Shown here: positions 191 through 6,520 of the stretch, piece by piece
How the letters are laid out: each line of letters starts with the position of its first letter
Numbering within the stretch: position 1 is the first letter of the stretch
Assembly: GCA_017553025.1 (NCBI GenBank)
Contig: JAFZNF010000198.1
Coordinates: 1-6,706 of the forward strand
Reading direction: 5' to 3'
DNA length: 6,706 nucleotides
Source: Clostridia bacterium
Lineage (GTDB): Bacteria > Bacillota_A > Clostridia > UBA1381
Position numbers and translations under genes: made by a program
Notes under the pieces: model-generated
Database searches by the model: none
What the model saw: only the letters and a program-made list of their open reading frames with translations
What the model was told of the DNA's origin: nothing

Positions 191-301
191 ATGGCAAAGA
201 ACGATAATAAGAATGACAACAAGAACAGCAACCAAAACAGCAATCAAAAGGATACCAACAAAAAGAACGATAATCAAAATTCCAACAAGAAGTGCGACTA
301 A
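191..301 (+). CDS. 36-residue Asn/Lys-rich hydrophilic mini-protein, possibly spore-associated
   Basis: ATG at 191 follows AAAGGA (175-180) at a 10-nt spacing and opens 36 codons ending in TAA. The product has 13 Asn, 8 Lys, 5 Asp, 3 Gln and 3 Ser, no hydrophobic residue after Ala2, and one Cys at position 35. Between residues 4 and 18 Asn occupies every second position, in units such as KND, KNS and QNS. This is disordered, low-complexity protein, not chance ORF composition. A terminator begins right after the stop, so the gene is a monocistronic unit. The bias recalls small Asn/Gln-rich spore proteins of the gamma-SASP kind, and the upstream boxes resemble a sigma-G promoter, but I see no diagnostic family motif. 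It could equally be another small disordered protein. Function unknown. Confidence 0.65.
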   Translation: MAKNDNKNDNKNSNQNSNQKDTNKKNDNQNSNKKCD

Positions 302-878: not shown

Positions 879-903
879 AAAAAAGCATACCCAAAGGATA
901 TGC
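879..903 (-). terminator. riboswitch expression-platform terminator upstream of thiT
   Basis: In the minus-strand RNA, GCAUAUCC (903-896) pairs with GGGUAUGC (892-885) across a UUU loop, giving 8 bp with one U-G pair, followed by six U (884-879). It lies between the TPP aptamer and the thiT Shine-Dalgarno, so it should act as the OFF-state terminator. Its 5' arm can instead pair with the aptamer's GGAUAAUGC (935-927) with one bulged A, a plausible antiterminator when TPP is absent. Confidence 0.8.
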
Positions 904-911
904 AAAAAGGT

Positions 912-997
912 AAAATCCCTACGATGGCATTATCCATATCAGGTTATAGGGTCGGAATTTAAAATTCCCTCTCAGCCTGTTTACAAGCTCCCCTTTT
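912..997 (-). ncRNA. TPP (thiamine pyrophosphate) riboswitch, THI element
   Basis: The minus strand carries the conserved THI-box blocks in order: GGGGAGC, the P2 hairpin closing at CAGGCUGAGAGG, a P3 stem made by GGAAUUU / AAAUUCC, then ACCC, AACCUGAU, GGAUAAUGCC and CGUAGGGA. P1 is AAAA (997-994) with UUUU (915-912). CUGAGA and GGAUAAUGCC contain the pyrimidine- and pyrophosphate-sensing residues of the family. With the downstream hairpin at 879-903 it should terminate transcription of thiT when TPP is plentiful. Confidence 0.97.
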
Positions 998-1015
998 CAG
1001 TATGCAATTTTCTTG

Positions 1016-1752: not shown

Positions 1753-2391
1753 TCACCTCTTACTTACCAAAAATTTTGCAAACTTTATCCCGTTTTTCTG
1801 ATAGGGCAGTTTCTTCTCACGCTCCGACTTTTTCTCGCGTTCTCTAAGTTTTATAACGCCGACATATAAATCGTCGGTATCAATTCCGATTTCTTTTAAT
1901 ACATCACAATTTTCAAGGCTTATGCAATATCCGTTATAGGAGGGGGCGGAGGTCCAGTTTTCAGCCTTTTCAAAAACATCCTCATTACTCAGGCGGTCTG
2001 CATATTCTTTCGATACCAAAAAAACAAAGGATTCTGTATATCCGCTTTCTACCGAATATTTTGTAAACATTGCCTGTGTGTACTGCGGATCAAGGTTTTC
2101 GCCCATATCAAGAACAGTAACATAGGCTTGATTTTTGCCGTTTTCATTAATGTCATCAATGTTTTTTTCAATCAGTCCGGTAAGAGCAGCTACAGAGCTG
2201 TCAGAAATCTTGTGCTCGGAAATATAATCAATCTGCAAATCATAATTTATCCTGCTTGCACACTCGGTTATCGAGGCTATAAGTACAATCATAAGAAGTA
2301 CACCTAAAATGGTATGCCACTTATAATAATCCCAGAAATATTCCCACCATTCCTTTGTAAAAAGCTTAGGTTTTGTTCCGTATACTTCCAT
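1753..2391 (-). CDS. uncharacterised N-terminally anchored membrane protein, operon partner of the sigma factor
   Basis: The 212-residue protein begins with an ATG at 2391, 6 nt after GGAG. Residues 1-25 are a short cytoplasmic segment rich in aromatics (FTKEWWEYFWDYYKWHT). A single transmembrane helix follows at about 26-45, then an extracytoplasmic domain of about 130 residues with alternating helices and strands (for example AYVTVLDMG near 89-97 and FVFLVSKEYADRL near 122-134). It closes with a very basic tail (KLREREKKSEREKK). I do not recognise a characterised domain. The aromatic K-E-W-x-x-x-W-x-Y-Y-K-W-H-T segment before one helix recalls uncharacterised clostridial membrane proteins, from memory only. 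Its stop is 4 nt from the sigma-factor start, so the two are co-transcribed. A role in sensing or restraining the sigma factor is possible but not shown. The cytoplasmic part is shorter than known anti-sigma domains. Confidence 0.8.
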   Translation of the reverse strand: MEVYGTKPKLFTKEWWEYFWDYYKWHTILGVLLMIVLIASITECASRINYDLQIDYISEHKISDSSVAALTGLIEKNIDDINENGKNQAYVTVLDMGENLDPQYTQAMFTKYSVESGYTESFVFLVSKEYADRLSNEDVFEKAENWTSAPSYNGYCISLENCDVLKEIGIDTDDLYVGVIKLREREKKSEREKKLPYQKNGIKFAKFLVSKR

Positions 2392-2499: not shown

Positions 2500-2526
2500 C
2501 AACAAAAAGGAGATGTTAAACAGAAA

Positions 2527-2721
2527 ATGAGCAATGGTAAGGATATAAAAACAGCCCTTGTTATGGAGGGCGGAGCGGCATTTGTAATAAGACCGCCCGA
2601 ACCTCTTGGAATTGGCAGAACCGAAAAAAATGCAGATGAGCTTGAGCGTATCTACCAAATAGGAAGACGGGAGGCGATAAGACGTCTCCCGTACCTGAAA
2701 AATTTTTTAATAAACAGCTAA
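2527..2721 (+). pseudogene. patatin-like phospholipase remnant: N and C termini fused, core missing
   Basis: The 64-codon frame joins two recognisable ends of a patatin-like phospholipase. Residues 7-17 (IKTALVMEGGA) match the N-terminal strand and oxyanion glycine loop (ALV-x-EGG) of the family. From residue 19, FVIRPPEPLGIGRTEKNADE and the following ERIYQIGRREA...LPYLKNFL match the C-terminal segment of bacterial YjjU-type patatins. Between them about 200 residues are missing, including the G-x-S-x-G nucleophile and the catalytic Asp, so it cannot be an active lipase. The join is in frame, near codons 17-18 (about 2575-2580). AGGAG (2508-2512) is 14 nt from the ATG, rather far. The promoter is intact and the stop lies 2 nt from the convergent mltG stop. 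It could be a decaying gene, an assembly collapse or, less likely, a retained micropeptide. Confidence 0.72.
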
Positions 2722-2723
2722 TT

Positions 2724-3716
2724 CTATTTTATAGTTGATGTATGCTGTGCAAAGGTTTCGCTGAATATATGCGAGCCGTCATTTTTGCTTGTGTCGGTGT
2801 GGTAGTACAAAAATTTATGCAATGACGGATTTTTTGCCGCAACAATTGACTTTAGTGAAGGACAGCAAATCGGACCTGCAGGCAAGCCGCTGTATTTATA
2901 CGTATTATACTTTGAATCTGTTTTTAGGTCCTTGTTATATATTCTGCTTATATCATATTTTCCGTCCGATACAGCATAGGCAACCGTTGCGTCAATTTGA
3001 AGTTTCATACCCTTTTTAAGGCGGTTTTCGATAACGCCTGCAATAATACTGCGTTCACTGTCAAGTTTTGCCTCGCGTTCTATAAGGGAAGCTTTTGTGA
3101 TTACATCAAAAAGGTCGGATTTTTCAATTCCAAGGCAAGAAATCTGTTTTTGAAACTCTTTTAGCATAGTGTCAATTACTGTTTTGGCACTTGCGTCAGC
3201 GTAGAATTCATAGGTTTCGGGATATAAAAAACCCTGAAGCCTATATTTTATGTCTTTTGAGTGCGGAACTGCGCTCAAAAAGTCATAATCGTAATTTTCT
3301 CTTAGCGCCGCCTCAAATTCCGACTTTGTGCAAAGCCCAAGGCTGATTAGCTTATCTTCAATCATTTCAACGGAATATCCCTCGGGGATTGTAACCGAAA
3401 CGGTGCTCTTTTTTGCACCGTCCTTTGAAAGTGTTTCAAATATGGTGCGGAGAGAGGAGTTTTTGTCCAATTTAAAGTTCCCGTACCGTAGTTTGCCGCG
3501 GTAAGGCGAAAGGTAAAGCCTTGCCAAAAAATAGGATTTGTTATTTATTAGTCCTCTGTCCTTTAAAATTTCCGAAATTTCCGCAGAATTTGCACCCTCG
3601 GGAATGGAAACAGAAACGACGCCTTTTTTAAACAGGCGGACGCACGAATTTGAAGCGATTATTATTAAAACTGCAAGGAACAGTCTTAAAATTAAAACTT
3701 TTTTCTTCTTTTTCAT
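2724..3716 (-). CDS. mltG: MltG, endolytic murein transglycosylase (YceG-like)
   Basis: MltG cleaves nascent glycan strands at the outer face of the membrane and sets peptidoglycan chain length. The 330-residue product has a Lys-rich N terminus and one membrane anchor at about 7-24. It then has LysM-like segments beginning VSIPEG (near 36) and VTIPEG (near 108), and the YceG catalytic domain: LQGFLYPETY at 160-169, ASLIEREA with the catalytic Glu at 213 (matching Glu218 of the E. coli enzyme), VIENRLKKGMKLQIDATVAY, and YNTYKYSGLPAGPI near 270-283. Length is normal. The frame extends upstream to a TTG at 3740, but ATG at 3716 has AGGA 5 nt upstream and begins directly with the signal-anchor, so I choose it. 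The longer start is probably an artefact of the obg frameshift. It follows obg in one operon. No convincing terminator follows. Confidence 0.93.
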   Translation of the reverse strand: MKKKKKVLILRLFLAVLIIIASNSCVRLFKKGVVSVSIPEGANSAEISEILKDRGLINNKSYFLARLYLSPYRGKLRYGNFKLDKNSSLRTIFETLSKDGAKKSTVSVTIPEGYSVEMIEDKLISLGLCTKSEFEAALRENYDYDFLSAVPHSKDIKYRLQGFLYPETYEFYADASAKTVIDTMLKEFQKQISCLGIEKSDLFDVITKASLIEREAKLDSERSIIAGVIENRLKKGMKLQIDATVAYAVSDGKYDISRIYNKDLKTDSKYNTYKYSGLPAGPICCPSLKSIVAAKNPSLHKFLYYHTDTSKNDGSHIFSETFAQHTSTIK

Positions 3717-3736
3717 AATGTTCCTACCATACAAAA

Positions 3737-5002
3737 TCAAATTCCAAATCGCCGATACGCACGGTATCTCCCTCTTTTATACCTTTCAATGAGCGCATCG
3801 ATTACACCGCGGTTTTTTAGCGCACTTTGGAAAAATTGAAGGCTTTCGCTGTCGGAAAAATTAACTCCGGAGCCGACCGCGTTTATCCAACTTCCCGAAA
3901 TCACATAAACGCCGTTATCTATGCTGATTTCAAATCCCTTGTCGGTTTTGTCCGTAAAATCTTCTTCAAATATATCTGTTTCTGGCTCAAATTCCTTTAT
4001 CGGCGGAAGTTTTGAAAGCTCGCCCATTGTAAATTTCATAAGTTCCGAAACACCATTGCCTGACGCCGCAGAAATAGGGAAAACCTTGTATCCGCGGTTT
4101 TGCATTTCAAGAATAAAATCATCATACATTTTTTGGTCTGTAATGATGTCCGTTTTGTTTGCTGCGATAATCTGCGGACGGCTCTCCAAATCCAAGCTGT
4201 ATTTTTTTAATTCGTCATTTATAATATCGAAATCAGAGATGGGATTTCTGCCCTCAATTCCCGAAACATCAACAACGTGGATTAAAAGGCGGGTGCGTTC
4301 AATGTGGCGCAAAAATTCGTGCCCAAGACCTGCGCCGTCGCTTGCGCCTTCAATTATTCCGGGGATATCCGCAAGGACAAAACTCATACCTTCGCCTAGT
4401 GTTACGACACCTAAATTCGGTACAAGAGTAGTAAAATGATAATTTGCGATTTTTGGCGCGGCCTTTGTTGTGACTGAAAGCAGTGTGGATTTTCCTACGT
4501 TAGGAAATCCTAAAAGCCCTACATCTGCGAGCAGTTTAAGCTCAAGAACAATTTCTCTTTCAACACCTTTTTGCCCGTTCTTTGCAAAATTGGGGGTCTG
4601 GCGTGTCGGGGTGGCAAAATGCGCGTTTCCCCAGCCGCCGTTTCCGCCTTTTGCAAGACAGACGTCCTTTTTTGTGTCGCAAATATCGGCCAAAATTTTT
4701 CCGCTTAAAGCGTCACGGATAACCGTGCCTTTCGGCACTTTTATAATGGTATCGGCTCCGTTTTTGCCGTTCATATGCTTGCCCATACCGCTTTGACCGT
4801 TTTCGGCGGTATATTTTCTCTTGTATTTAAAATCCATAAGCGTTGTTAGGGCTTCGTCGGCACGAAAAAGTATATTTCCGCCTTTTCCGCCGTCGCCGCC
4901 GTCAGGACCGCCTGCTGCAACATATTTCTCGCGGTGGAATGCAATAGCACCGTTTCCGCCGTTTCCTGCCTTTATAAAAATTTTTGCTTTATCGGTAAAC
5001 AT
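3737..5002 (-). CDS. obgE: Obg (CgtA) GTPase with a frameshifted C-terminal OCT domain
   Basis: Obg is a ribosome-associated GTPase acting in 50S assembly and stress signalling. The glycine-rich Obg fold covers residues 1-158 (KAGNGGNGAIAFHREK, GGPDGGDGGKGGN). The GTPase domain has G1 GFPNVGKS at 165-172, switch YHFTTL near 198, G3 DIPG at 212-215, G4 NKTD at 282-285 and G5 SAA at 321. The OCT domain runs from about 357. After IDALIE (401-406) the frame ends RYKRGRYRAYRRFGI, unlike the family. Another frame from 3781 reads IKEGDTVRIGDLEFDFVW and stops at 3724-3726, which is the canonical end; a 2-nt loss near 3780-3787 explains it. The start is ATG at 5002 with AGGAG 8 nt upstream; the longer frame to 5044 would add a non-homologous hydrophobic leader. 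Repaired length would be about 426 residues, normal for Obg. rplU/rpmA, its common neighbours in Firmicutes, are absent. Confidence 0.95.
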   Translation of the reverse strand: MFTDKAKIFIKAGNGGNGAIAFHREKYVAAGGPDGGDGGKGGNILFRADEALTTLMDFKYKRKYTAENGQSGMGKHMNGKNGADTIIKVPKGTVIRDALSGKILADICDTKKDVCLAKGGNGGWGNAHFATPTRQTPNFAKNGQKGVEREIVLELKLLADVGLLGFPNVGKSTLLSVTTKAAPKIANYHFTTLVPNLGVVTLGEGMSFVLADIPGIIEGASDGAGLGHEFLRHIERTRLLIHVVDVSGIEGRNPISDFDIINDELKKYSLDLESRPQIIAANKTDIITDQKMYDDFILEMQNRGYKVFPISAASGNGVSELMKFTMGELSKLPPIKEFEPETDIFEEDFTDKTDKGFEISIDNGVYVISGSWINAVGSGVNFSDSESLQFFQSALKNRGVIDALIERYKRGRYRAYRRFGI

Positions 5003-5132: not shown

Positions 5133-5783
5133 TTATCTTATGAATTCATCCCAAATAACGTCTGAGGTGGCCGACAGAATGAATGAAAGAAGCAGACACG
5201 CCTGATGCGGACCGATAAATGCCGCCTTTTCAATCCAGGTTGGGCGCGGGAAAGTTCCCCAAGTATTGAAAGAAAATATAAACGCGGGAACAACCCCGAT
5301 TAAAATAATAAATAAATATAAAAGGCAAGATATCAATTTTTTTTCTGTAAAATACTTTCCGAAAAGTAAGTATGCTGTGGAAAGCAGGATACAGCAAATT
5401 GTTCCGTAAAGATTAGGCACACCGATAAGAATGTTGCAGAAAACAGCATCACCCAAAGTAAAGGTATAGCGGTGAAAGAAGCCGTAAGTAAACAAATCTG
5501 CTATCGCTCCGACCAGAATAACGGCGGAGAGAGAAAAGCATATAGACATAAAAATCTTTTTTTTGCTTTTGTACTTTGGCGAATAGATAATTGCAGCAGG
5601 AAAAAGCACAAGCAGGAATGAGTATAGAATGAAGCATATAATCTGAACATTTGCAAAATGCAGCAATGCTGCCGCGGATATAAATTCCCATAATTTGAAA
5701 TATAAATAGAAAAACCATAATGCAACACTTAAAAAATGCAAACAACATACTAAATTTCGTATATGGCGTGTACGGAAGTCCAT
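5133..5783 (-). CDS. polytopic membrane protein of unknown function, second gene of a tandem pair
   Basis: The 216-residue protein has about six hydrophobic segments, near residues 9-28, 44-66, 77-97, 112-141, 150-172 and 190-206. It ends ATSDVIWDEFIR, with almost nothing after the last helix. ATG at 5783 lies 5 nt from GGAGG (5793-5789). An upstream in-frame TTG at 5795 overlaps that Shine-Dalgarno and is unlikely to be used. The preceding gene stops 14 nt upstream, so the two form one operon, closed by the terminator at 5078-5121. Its C-terminal S-D-x-x-W-x-E-F motif, the F-F-Y...E-F-I-S-A-A stretch near 24-39 and the overall helix layout parallel the upstream neighbour, suggesting an old duplication. 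I recognise no catalytic, transport or binding motif. Function unknown. Confidence 0.8.
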   Translation of the reverse strand: MDFRTRHIRNLVCCLHFLSVALWFFYLYFKLWEFISAAALLHFANVQIICFILYSFLLVLFPAAIIYSPKYKSKKKIFMSICFSLSAVILVGAIADLFTYGFFHRYTFTLGDAVFCNILIGVPNLYGTICCILLSTAYLLFGKYFTEKKLISCLLYLFIILIGVVPAFIFSFNTWGTFPRPTWIEKAAFIGPHQACLLLSFILSATSDVIWDEFIR

Positions 5784-5797
5784 TTTATCCTCCAAAA

Positions 5798-6520
5798 TTA
5801 CTGTTCAGCATCTTCGTTTTCAGCAAATACGAGCTGATCCCAAACAAATTCAATCCAGGTATAATCGCTTGCGCCGGCAAGCAGAATGCCGATAGTAAAA
5901 AACAACTGCGATGCGATTTCCAAGGCATTGTTTGTCAGCCAAAAAAGAGAAAATACACGGTCCTGTGTTAATATATTATTAAAAAACGGAAGAATTATTC
6001 TCAGTACAAAAAGCGACAAAACAAGCAATTTGACTGTTGATTTGTCCTTGTCAAAATAAAGTCCCGTATAAATGGCGAGAACGCCGTAAATAATGGAAAA
6101 TACAGCAGCTGTAAAACTGTAAGTGTCCCAGAATGTCAAGGAATAAACAAAACCGCCGTCTTTCATAAAGCGGGTAAGATTATCAGTTGAAAAAATACCT
6201 GAGGCAGGCTGTGAGAAGAGAAAATACACAATCCATAAAACTGTGACAATATGGCATATGCCGTATGCAATAAACCCGATACGCGCAAGTTTTATACGCC
6301 CGAATTCAAACATTGACGGTACAATAAATACAACAGGAATAAAAACCCCGCCGAAAATGCGTAAAAATGCATATGCGATATTAGGTATATTCATTTTTCC
6401 GTATTCTATAGCTACAGAAATAAAGTCAATATTATTCATATAGAAAAAAACAAATCCTGAAATAAATGCCAAGGTCATCAAAAACTTGAAAGTATATCTT
6501 TGTATAAACGAGTTTTCCAT
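5798..6520 (-). CDS. polytopic membrane protein of unknown function, first gene of a tandem pair
   Basis: The 240-residue protein starts at ATG 6520, 9 nt after AAGGAG (6535-6530), and has about six hydrophobic segments, near 11-28, 46-68, 80-102, 132-154, 163-180 and 202-216. It ends GASDYTWIEFVWDQL followed by an acidic tail (FAENEDAEQ), probably cytoplasmic. The S-D-x-x-W-x-E-F motif (218-225) recurs at the end of the next protein (207-214), and F-F-Y...D-F-I-S-V-A near 25-37 aligns with F-F-Y...E-F-I-S-A-A there, so the two are probably divergent paralogues. It leads the operon, with its own promoter at 6558-6586. No known transporter, enzyme or receptor signature is visible to me. Candidate roles such as a small-molecule or lipid-binding membrane protein would be guesses. 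Confidence 0.8.
   Translation of the reverse strand: MENSFIQRYTFKFLMTLAFISGFVFFYMNNIDFISVAIEYGKMNIPNIAYAFLRIFGGVFIPVVFIVPSMFEFGRIKLARIGFIAYGICHIVTVLWIVYFLFSQPASGIFSTDNLTRFMKDGGFVYSLTFWDTYSFTAAVFSIIYGVLAIYTGLYFDKDKSTVKLLVLSLFVLRIILPFFNNILTQDRVFSLFWLTNNALEIASQLFFTIGILLAGASDYTWIEFVWDQLVFAENEDAEQ

Follow-up and report, generated by a model that had tools for sequence, protein, structure and literature searches.

The window analyzed here, a stretch of 6,706 nucleotides, contains an open frame of 64 codons (2527 to 2721, plus strand) whose two ends resemble the two ends of a patatin-like phospholipase, which raises the question of how such a frame arose and whether its product does anything. A preliminary description, made from the DNA letters, had left three options: a recent deletion in a dispensable lipase, an assembly artefact, or a stable micropeptide derived from a lipase. 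The evidence below favors the first of these. Very probably, a patatin-family lipase gene that was dispensable lost its middle in frame, recently and at the level of this species, leaving an enzymatically dead remnant and hence a young pseudogene.

To define the two parts of the frame, we compared it with P0004, the full-length patatin-family protein encoded at the closest related locus (L001, described below). Codons 1 to 17 (2527 to 2577), ending in ALVMEGGA, retain the 5′ end of a patatin gene, which encodes the first strand and the beginning of the glycine-rich loop. Residues 5 to 22 of P0004 align on positions 2524 to 2577 with 72% identity (tblastn, E = 0.002), and residues 7 to 17 of the remnant (IKTALVMEGGA) are identical to P0004 residues 12 to 22; these 11 residues bear out the earlier reading that the frame begins with the patatin ALV-x-EGG strand and loop. 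Codons 18 to 64 and the stop (2578 to 2721) retain the 3′ end, which is matched by P0004 residues 244 to 291 (tblastn, E = 1.7e-13). Here Pfam places the remnant in the DUF6363 family (PF19890), residues 14 to 61 scoring 50.2 bits (cut-off, 26.4) over profile positions 27 to 74 of 75 only. The Patatin domain (PF01734) was unmatched by Pfam in the 64 residues, so by domain the remnant does not belong to that family. The same 64 residues matched no NCBIfam family and, at E values up to 10, no solved structure; when they were searched against viral contigs, one locus (L085) matched, over residues 49 to 64 only. The deletion junction lies at 2577 to 2578 or a few bases off, and past it the remnant picks up at P0004 residue 248 or 249 (FVIRP), consistent with the jump near codon 17 that had been proposed. 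The frame is free of stops and frameshifts from ATG to TAA; as previously suggested, both the reading frame across the join and the stop are intact. A missing block had likewise been recognized, but its length was put at about 600 bp, whereas 225 codons, or 675 bp, are absent relative to P0004.

Related loci were collected by scanning genome contigs with the neighboring MltG, which yielded 14 loci. The closest, L001, was used for the whole locus and L002 for the Obg end, while L003 to L014 (31 to 36% identity) were left out. L001 comes from a Bacillota MAG whose MltG is 80% identical to that of the window, and it holds a 297-codon patatin gene between mltG and the gene for a 212-amino-acid protein, in the same relative orientation. 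The product of this gene (P0004) has both a Patatin domain (73.1 bits; cut-off, 27.7) and a DUF6363 domain. In the window, the same two neighbors bracket the remnant and serve as syntenic markers: the divergent gene (1753 to 2391, minus strand) encodes the 212-amino-acid protein, which is of membrane type with one hydrophobic stretch near the N terminus, and the convergent gene (2724 to 3740, minus strand) is mltG, encoding an endolytic transglycosylase (TIGR00247, 195.5 bits; cut-off, 103.4). When the two loci were aligned, the upstream hexamers coincided, the 5′ ends matched as far as the EGGA codons, and the 3′ parts matched again beyond a single large gap.

L001 is the only locus in which both neighbors are shared. 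In three further genomes (G002, G005, and G008), a full-length patatin gene lies beside a homologue of the 212-amino-acid gene; the other neighbor of the patatin gene is not mltG in G005 and G008, and in G002 one 105-amino-acid frame intervenes between the two genes (L047). This intervening frame (691 to 1008 of L047) consists of a hydrophobic part and a CxxC...CxxC part. The comparison of the orthologous locus in relatives that had been proposed therefore yields a full-length orthologue at the same locus, rather than 64-residue orthologues lacking a full-length relative there. The association between the two genes also appears to be wider: among the first 23 of 120 patatin clusters listed, 14 have a longest contig of exactly the same size as the longest contig in one of the first 36 of 75 clusters of the 212-amino-acid protein, so the two genes probably share contigs in those 14 clusters. 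A DNA search with the 361 bases around the remnant frame matched 8 of 61 genomes. The matches in G001, G002, and G005 fall at the patatin locus, and the short matches elsewhere in the other five genomes are probably due to chance.

The distance between the two retained ends is nearly constant in full-length genes. Among 31 loci given, representing 30 distinct genes, 14 genes fitted no simple pattern and were left out; in 12 of the remaining 16 the EGGA-VIRP spacing measures 231 codons, and in the other four it ranges from 228 to 233. One of the 16 (L055) has a TGA inside its P0004 match. The near-constant spacing argues that the window lost one clean block.

We next asked what this block contained. 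An alignment (A1) of P0004 with 29 of the 120 patatin proteins listed (of 7,792 matches) has 87 invariant columns, 71 of which fall in the lost part, so that residues needed for function are gone; of the 16 that the remnant holds, 15 are kept, the exception being a change from V to I. The GxSxG motif with the nucleophile serine (GVSAG, P0004 residues 47 to 51) and the catalytic aspartate motif DG[GA] (DGG, P0004 residue 170) both lie in the missing 225 codons, in agreement with the earlier statement that the catalytic Ser-Asp core is absent. The oxyanion loop with its Arg/Lys (EGGxMRG in this subfamily) is incomplete in the remnant, with EGGA kept and MRG lost. An AlphaFold2 model of P0004 (pLDDT, 83.2; pTM, 0.85) has the patatin fold. 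In this model, the lost part takes in all elements from helix 25-37 through helix 228-245; the C-terminal helices and two strands (14-19 and 248-251) fall outside it. The model of the 64-residue product, built from an alignment of only four sequences, is poor (two helices; pLDDT, 68.0; pTM, 0.33). Since the catalytic Ser and Asp are gone and Ser-Asp catalysis is established for the family, the remnant presumably cannot be a patatin enzyme, and judging from its sequence it would be enzymatically dead.

The signals upstream of the frame have fared unequally. Promoter-like hexamers, TTGCAT (2471 to 2476) and TATAAT (2494 to 2499), are separated by 17 nucleotides, with TGA ahead of the −10 element (2471 to 2499 in all, plus strand), and in the locus alignment they line up with their counterparts ahead of the full-length L001 gene; the hexamers thus persist, as had been proposed for the promoter. 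A consensus promoter scan of the window did not list these hexamers because TTGCAT shares three of the six bases of TTGACA and the scan demands four. The Shine-Dalgarno sequence had also been said to persist, and this holds in part. A Shine-Dalgarno-like AGGAG is present (2508 to 2512, plus strand), but this sole AGGAG ahead of the remnant lies 14 nucleotides from the ATG, which is a poor Shine-Dalgarno-to-ATG distance. In L001, an AGGAG lies 5 nucleotides from an in-frame ATG, and no AGGAG occurs at that spacing in the window.

Among known systems, the full-length Patatin plus DUF6363 proteins (PF01734 and PF19890; P0004/P0005 in L001) are the closest, sharing with the remnant the locus, its neighbors, the EGGA strand and loop, and the DUF6363 end; the window differs from them in lacking the 225 codons that bear the catalytic Ser and Asp. 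The NCBIfam model nearest to P0004 is RssA (PRK10279; residues 12 to 192, 45.6 bits), but P0004 is not filed as RssA because this score is far below the model cut-off of 272. A second NCBIfam candidate for P0004, VpdC, was taken as noise (19 bits against a cut-off of 1000). A Foldseek comparison gave PlpD (5fya and 5fqu), CapV, CapE, and patatin (1oxw) as the best solved matches of the P0004 model, and of these solved patatin-fold enzymes only PlpD is matched by the A1 profile. In contrast to all of them, the remnant is predicted to retain no more of the P0004 model than its first and last strands and its C-terminal helices. Strain-variable open reading frames of Rickettsia are, in the accessible text of PMC2374718, likewise short frames, each corresponding to a fragment of a longer positional homologue; as far as that text describes them, the window's remnant differs in keeping both ends in one frame. 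Our literature search, in sources available in part, found no paper on DUF6363 and nothing on this locus.

Taken as a deletion, the history of the locus would be simple. The ancestor in this lineage would have carried an intact Patatin plus DUF6363 gene of about 290 codons. A single block of about 675 bp, lying between the EGGA loop and the FVIRP strand near the C terminus, would have been lost in frame, leaving the hexamers, the start, the stop, and both neighbors in place. What remains, as the sequence shows, encodes the first strand together with the C-terminal portion, but neither the catalytic Ser nor the catalytic Asp. A loss that is a multiple of three is expected by chance one time in three. 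The deletion may stem from slippage or end joining at short GC-rich stretches that resemble each other near the two ends; this step is a guess, as no undeleted allele was found for this species and the DNA compared is that of relatives. The two ends of the relatives' genes do carry such stretches, for example GGCGGAGC and GGCGAGGC in L047. Either process could make use of them, but the longest exact matches between the two end regions are 7 to 9 nucleotides in four relatives, which is near the length expected by chance.

These stretches also bear on a rival explanation, in which the gene is intact and assembly or binning lost 675 bp of it, the assembler having joined the sequence across a short repeat. 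The window may be a metagenome contig, and its obg gene has a net loss of 2 nucleotides near the 3′ end relative to L001 that could be a sequencing error, both of which would fit an artefact; exact stretches of 7 to 9 nucleotides, however, are much too short to disrupt an assembly. More directly, the deleted form occurs outside this assembly as well. A protein search with the 64 residues, which needs shared five-residue words and could miss distant forms, gave three candidates and three matches (P0001, P0002, and P0003). P0001 is 64 residues long and has the same join, with one residue different from the window (Leu to Phe at position 54); its cluster comprises 2 sequences and 5 contigs, among which the window's own contig may be included. 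Nor was an undeleted form with the termini of this species present among the best 120 of 7,792 patatin matches. When 124 proteins were ranked by their match to both ends, the full-length ones among the best 30 had no more than 34 of the 47 C-terminal residues in common with the remnant, and thus none of these is an undeleted form from the window's species. On the strength of P0001 above all, we regard an artefact as extremely unlikely.

The other rival holds that the lipase gave rise to a stable, functional micropeptide of 64 residues, perhaps a helical one that binds a partner of DUF6363. It can draw on the open frame and its conserved C-terminal residues, on hexamers kept as in L001, on the existence of two protein variants (the window and P0001), and on a rate of amino acid change no faster than between full-length genes: over 48 codons, dN from the remnant to four full-length genes is 0.24 to 0.29, against 0.20 to 0.38 among those genes, in a comparison in which synonymous sites are saturated and undefined in four of six full-length pairs. 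Such an unaccelerated dN, like the open frame and the invariant residues kept, would be explained by a very recent deletion and equally by continued selection on the peptide. Against this rival stand the long Shine-Dalgarno spacing and the poor structural model, although the latter derives from only four sequences. The distribution of the family weighs further against it. Of the three similar-length homologues, only the near-identical P0001 carries both ends, P0002 and P0003 being C-terminal pieces only. DUF6363 occurs in 131 of 296 genomes, and for 140 of the 144 matches listed the frame measures 277 amino acids or more; of the other four (in G084, G291, G180, and G116), the G084 match runs into the first bases of its contig, and the G291 match, under cut-off, occupies bases 3 to 83 of its contig. 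Neither the 64-residue protein search nor the DUF6363 survey of the 296 genomes revealed a second species with the collapsed, both-ends form. A conserved micropeptide family is thus not supported, these searches having revealed no same-length orthologue in another species, and we consider a functional micropeptide very unlikely. It is, in our estimate, highly improbable that the collapse made a small helical DUF6363 peptide that the old promoter still expresses and that selection has kept in this species. Were the peptide translated and kept, the locus would record the traceable birth of a new small protein by the internal collapse of an enzyme gene. Read as a deletion in a lipase gene, it is a clean, well-bracketed case of gene loss by a single in-frame event, and so of ordinary gene decay; it also carries a warning that gene callers will annotate a “DUF6363 protein” of 64 amino acids here, most likely a dead remnant.

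In 61 genomes (G001 and relatives), the 212-amino-acid gene was found in 55 and a P0004 match, in a few cases weak, in 42. Three genomes (G006, G007, and G009) carry the 212-amino-acid gene, with differing flanking genes, and gave neither a P0004 nor a DUF6363 match, although their completeness is unstated and single absences may be gaps. Because related genomes with no detectable copy exist, the patatin gene is probably dispensable. YjjU of E. coli is, we presume, a patatin-family DUF6363 protein. NCBIfam calls RssA patatin-like (PRK10279). According to the accessible part of PMC3469383, E. coli yjjU and rssA knock-outs are viable and grow at 77 to 130% of the parent's rate.

The other two of the four DUF6363 matches in shorter frames are those in G116 and G180. 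In G116 (L116, contig C11, about 1660 to 1842), a lone C-terminal DUF6363 piece has a stop just before it, and the patatin core is absent upstream in the 1,950 bases examined; this is probably an independent patatin-gene remnant. In G180 (L118, contig C7, bases 1 to 490), a 153-amino-acid frame that opens at about base 29 contains the DGG half of the patatin core together with DUF6363. The stretch before it looks out of frame, perhaps because of a frame break at the contig edge.

Several features elsewhere in the window were also noted. The 212-amino-acid protein, for which no Pfam family exceeded its cut-off, is encoded ahead of a SigB/SigF/SigG-like sigma factor (1041 to 2391 for the pair, minus strand), whose scores fall short of the SigB/F/G cut-offs that were reported. 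The two genes are adjacent in L001 and in all six of the other loci read (L018 to L023), which makes the 212-amino-acid protein a candidate anti-sigma partner or sensor. At the 3′ end of obg (3737 to 3784, minus strand), an unrelated 15-residue tail replaces the last 20 residues of the L001 protein, to which L002 is similar; the change results from the net loss of 2 nucleotides in the frame and is either real or a sequencing error. Two adjacent hydrophobic proteins (5133 to 5795 and 5798 to 6520, minus strand), neither of which reaches the cut-off of any Pfam or NCBIfam family, have similar C-terminal ends (SATSDVIWDEFI and AGASDYTWIEFVWD) and are possibly tandem paralogues. Near the start of the window (191 to 301, plus strand), a 36-amino-acid peptide rich in Asn, Lys, Asp, and Gln ends in KKCD and is followed by a hairpin-like GCGGCAG...CTGCCGC; its L001 counterpart has 40 amino acids and ends in RKCD. 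Finally, a TPP riboswitch (899 to 1004, minus strand; 74.6 bits) lies upstream of thiT, an ordinary arrangement.
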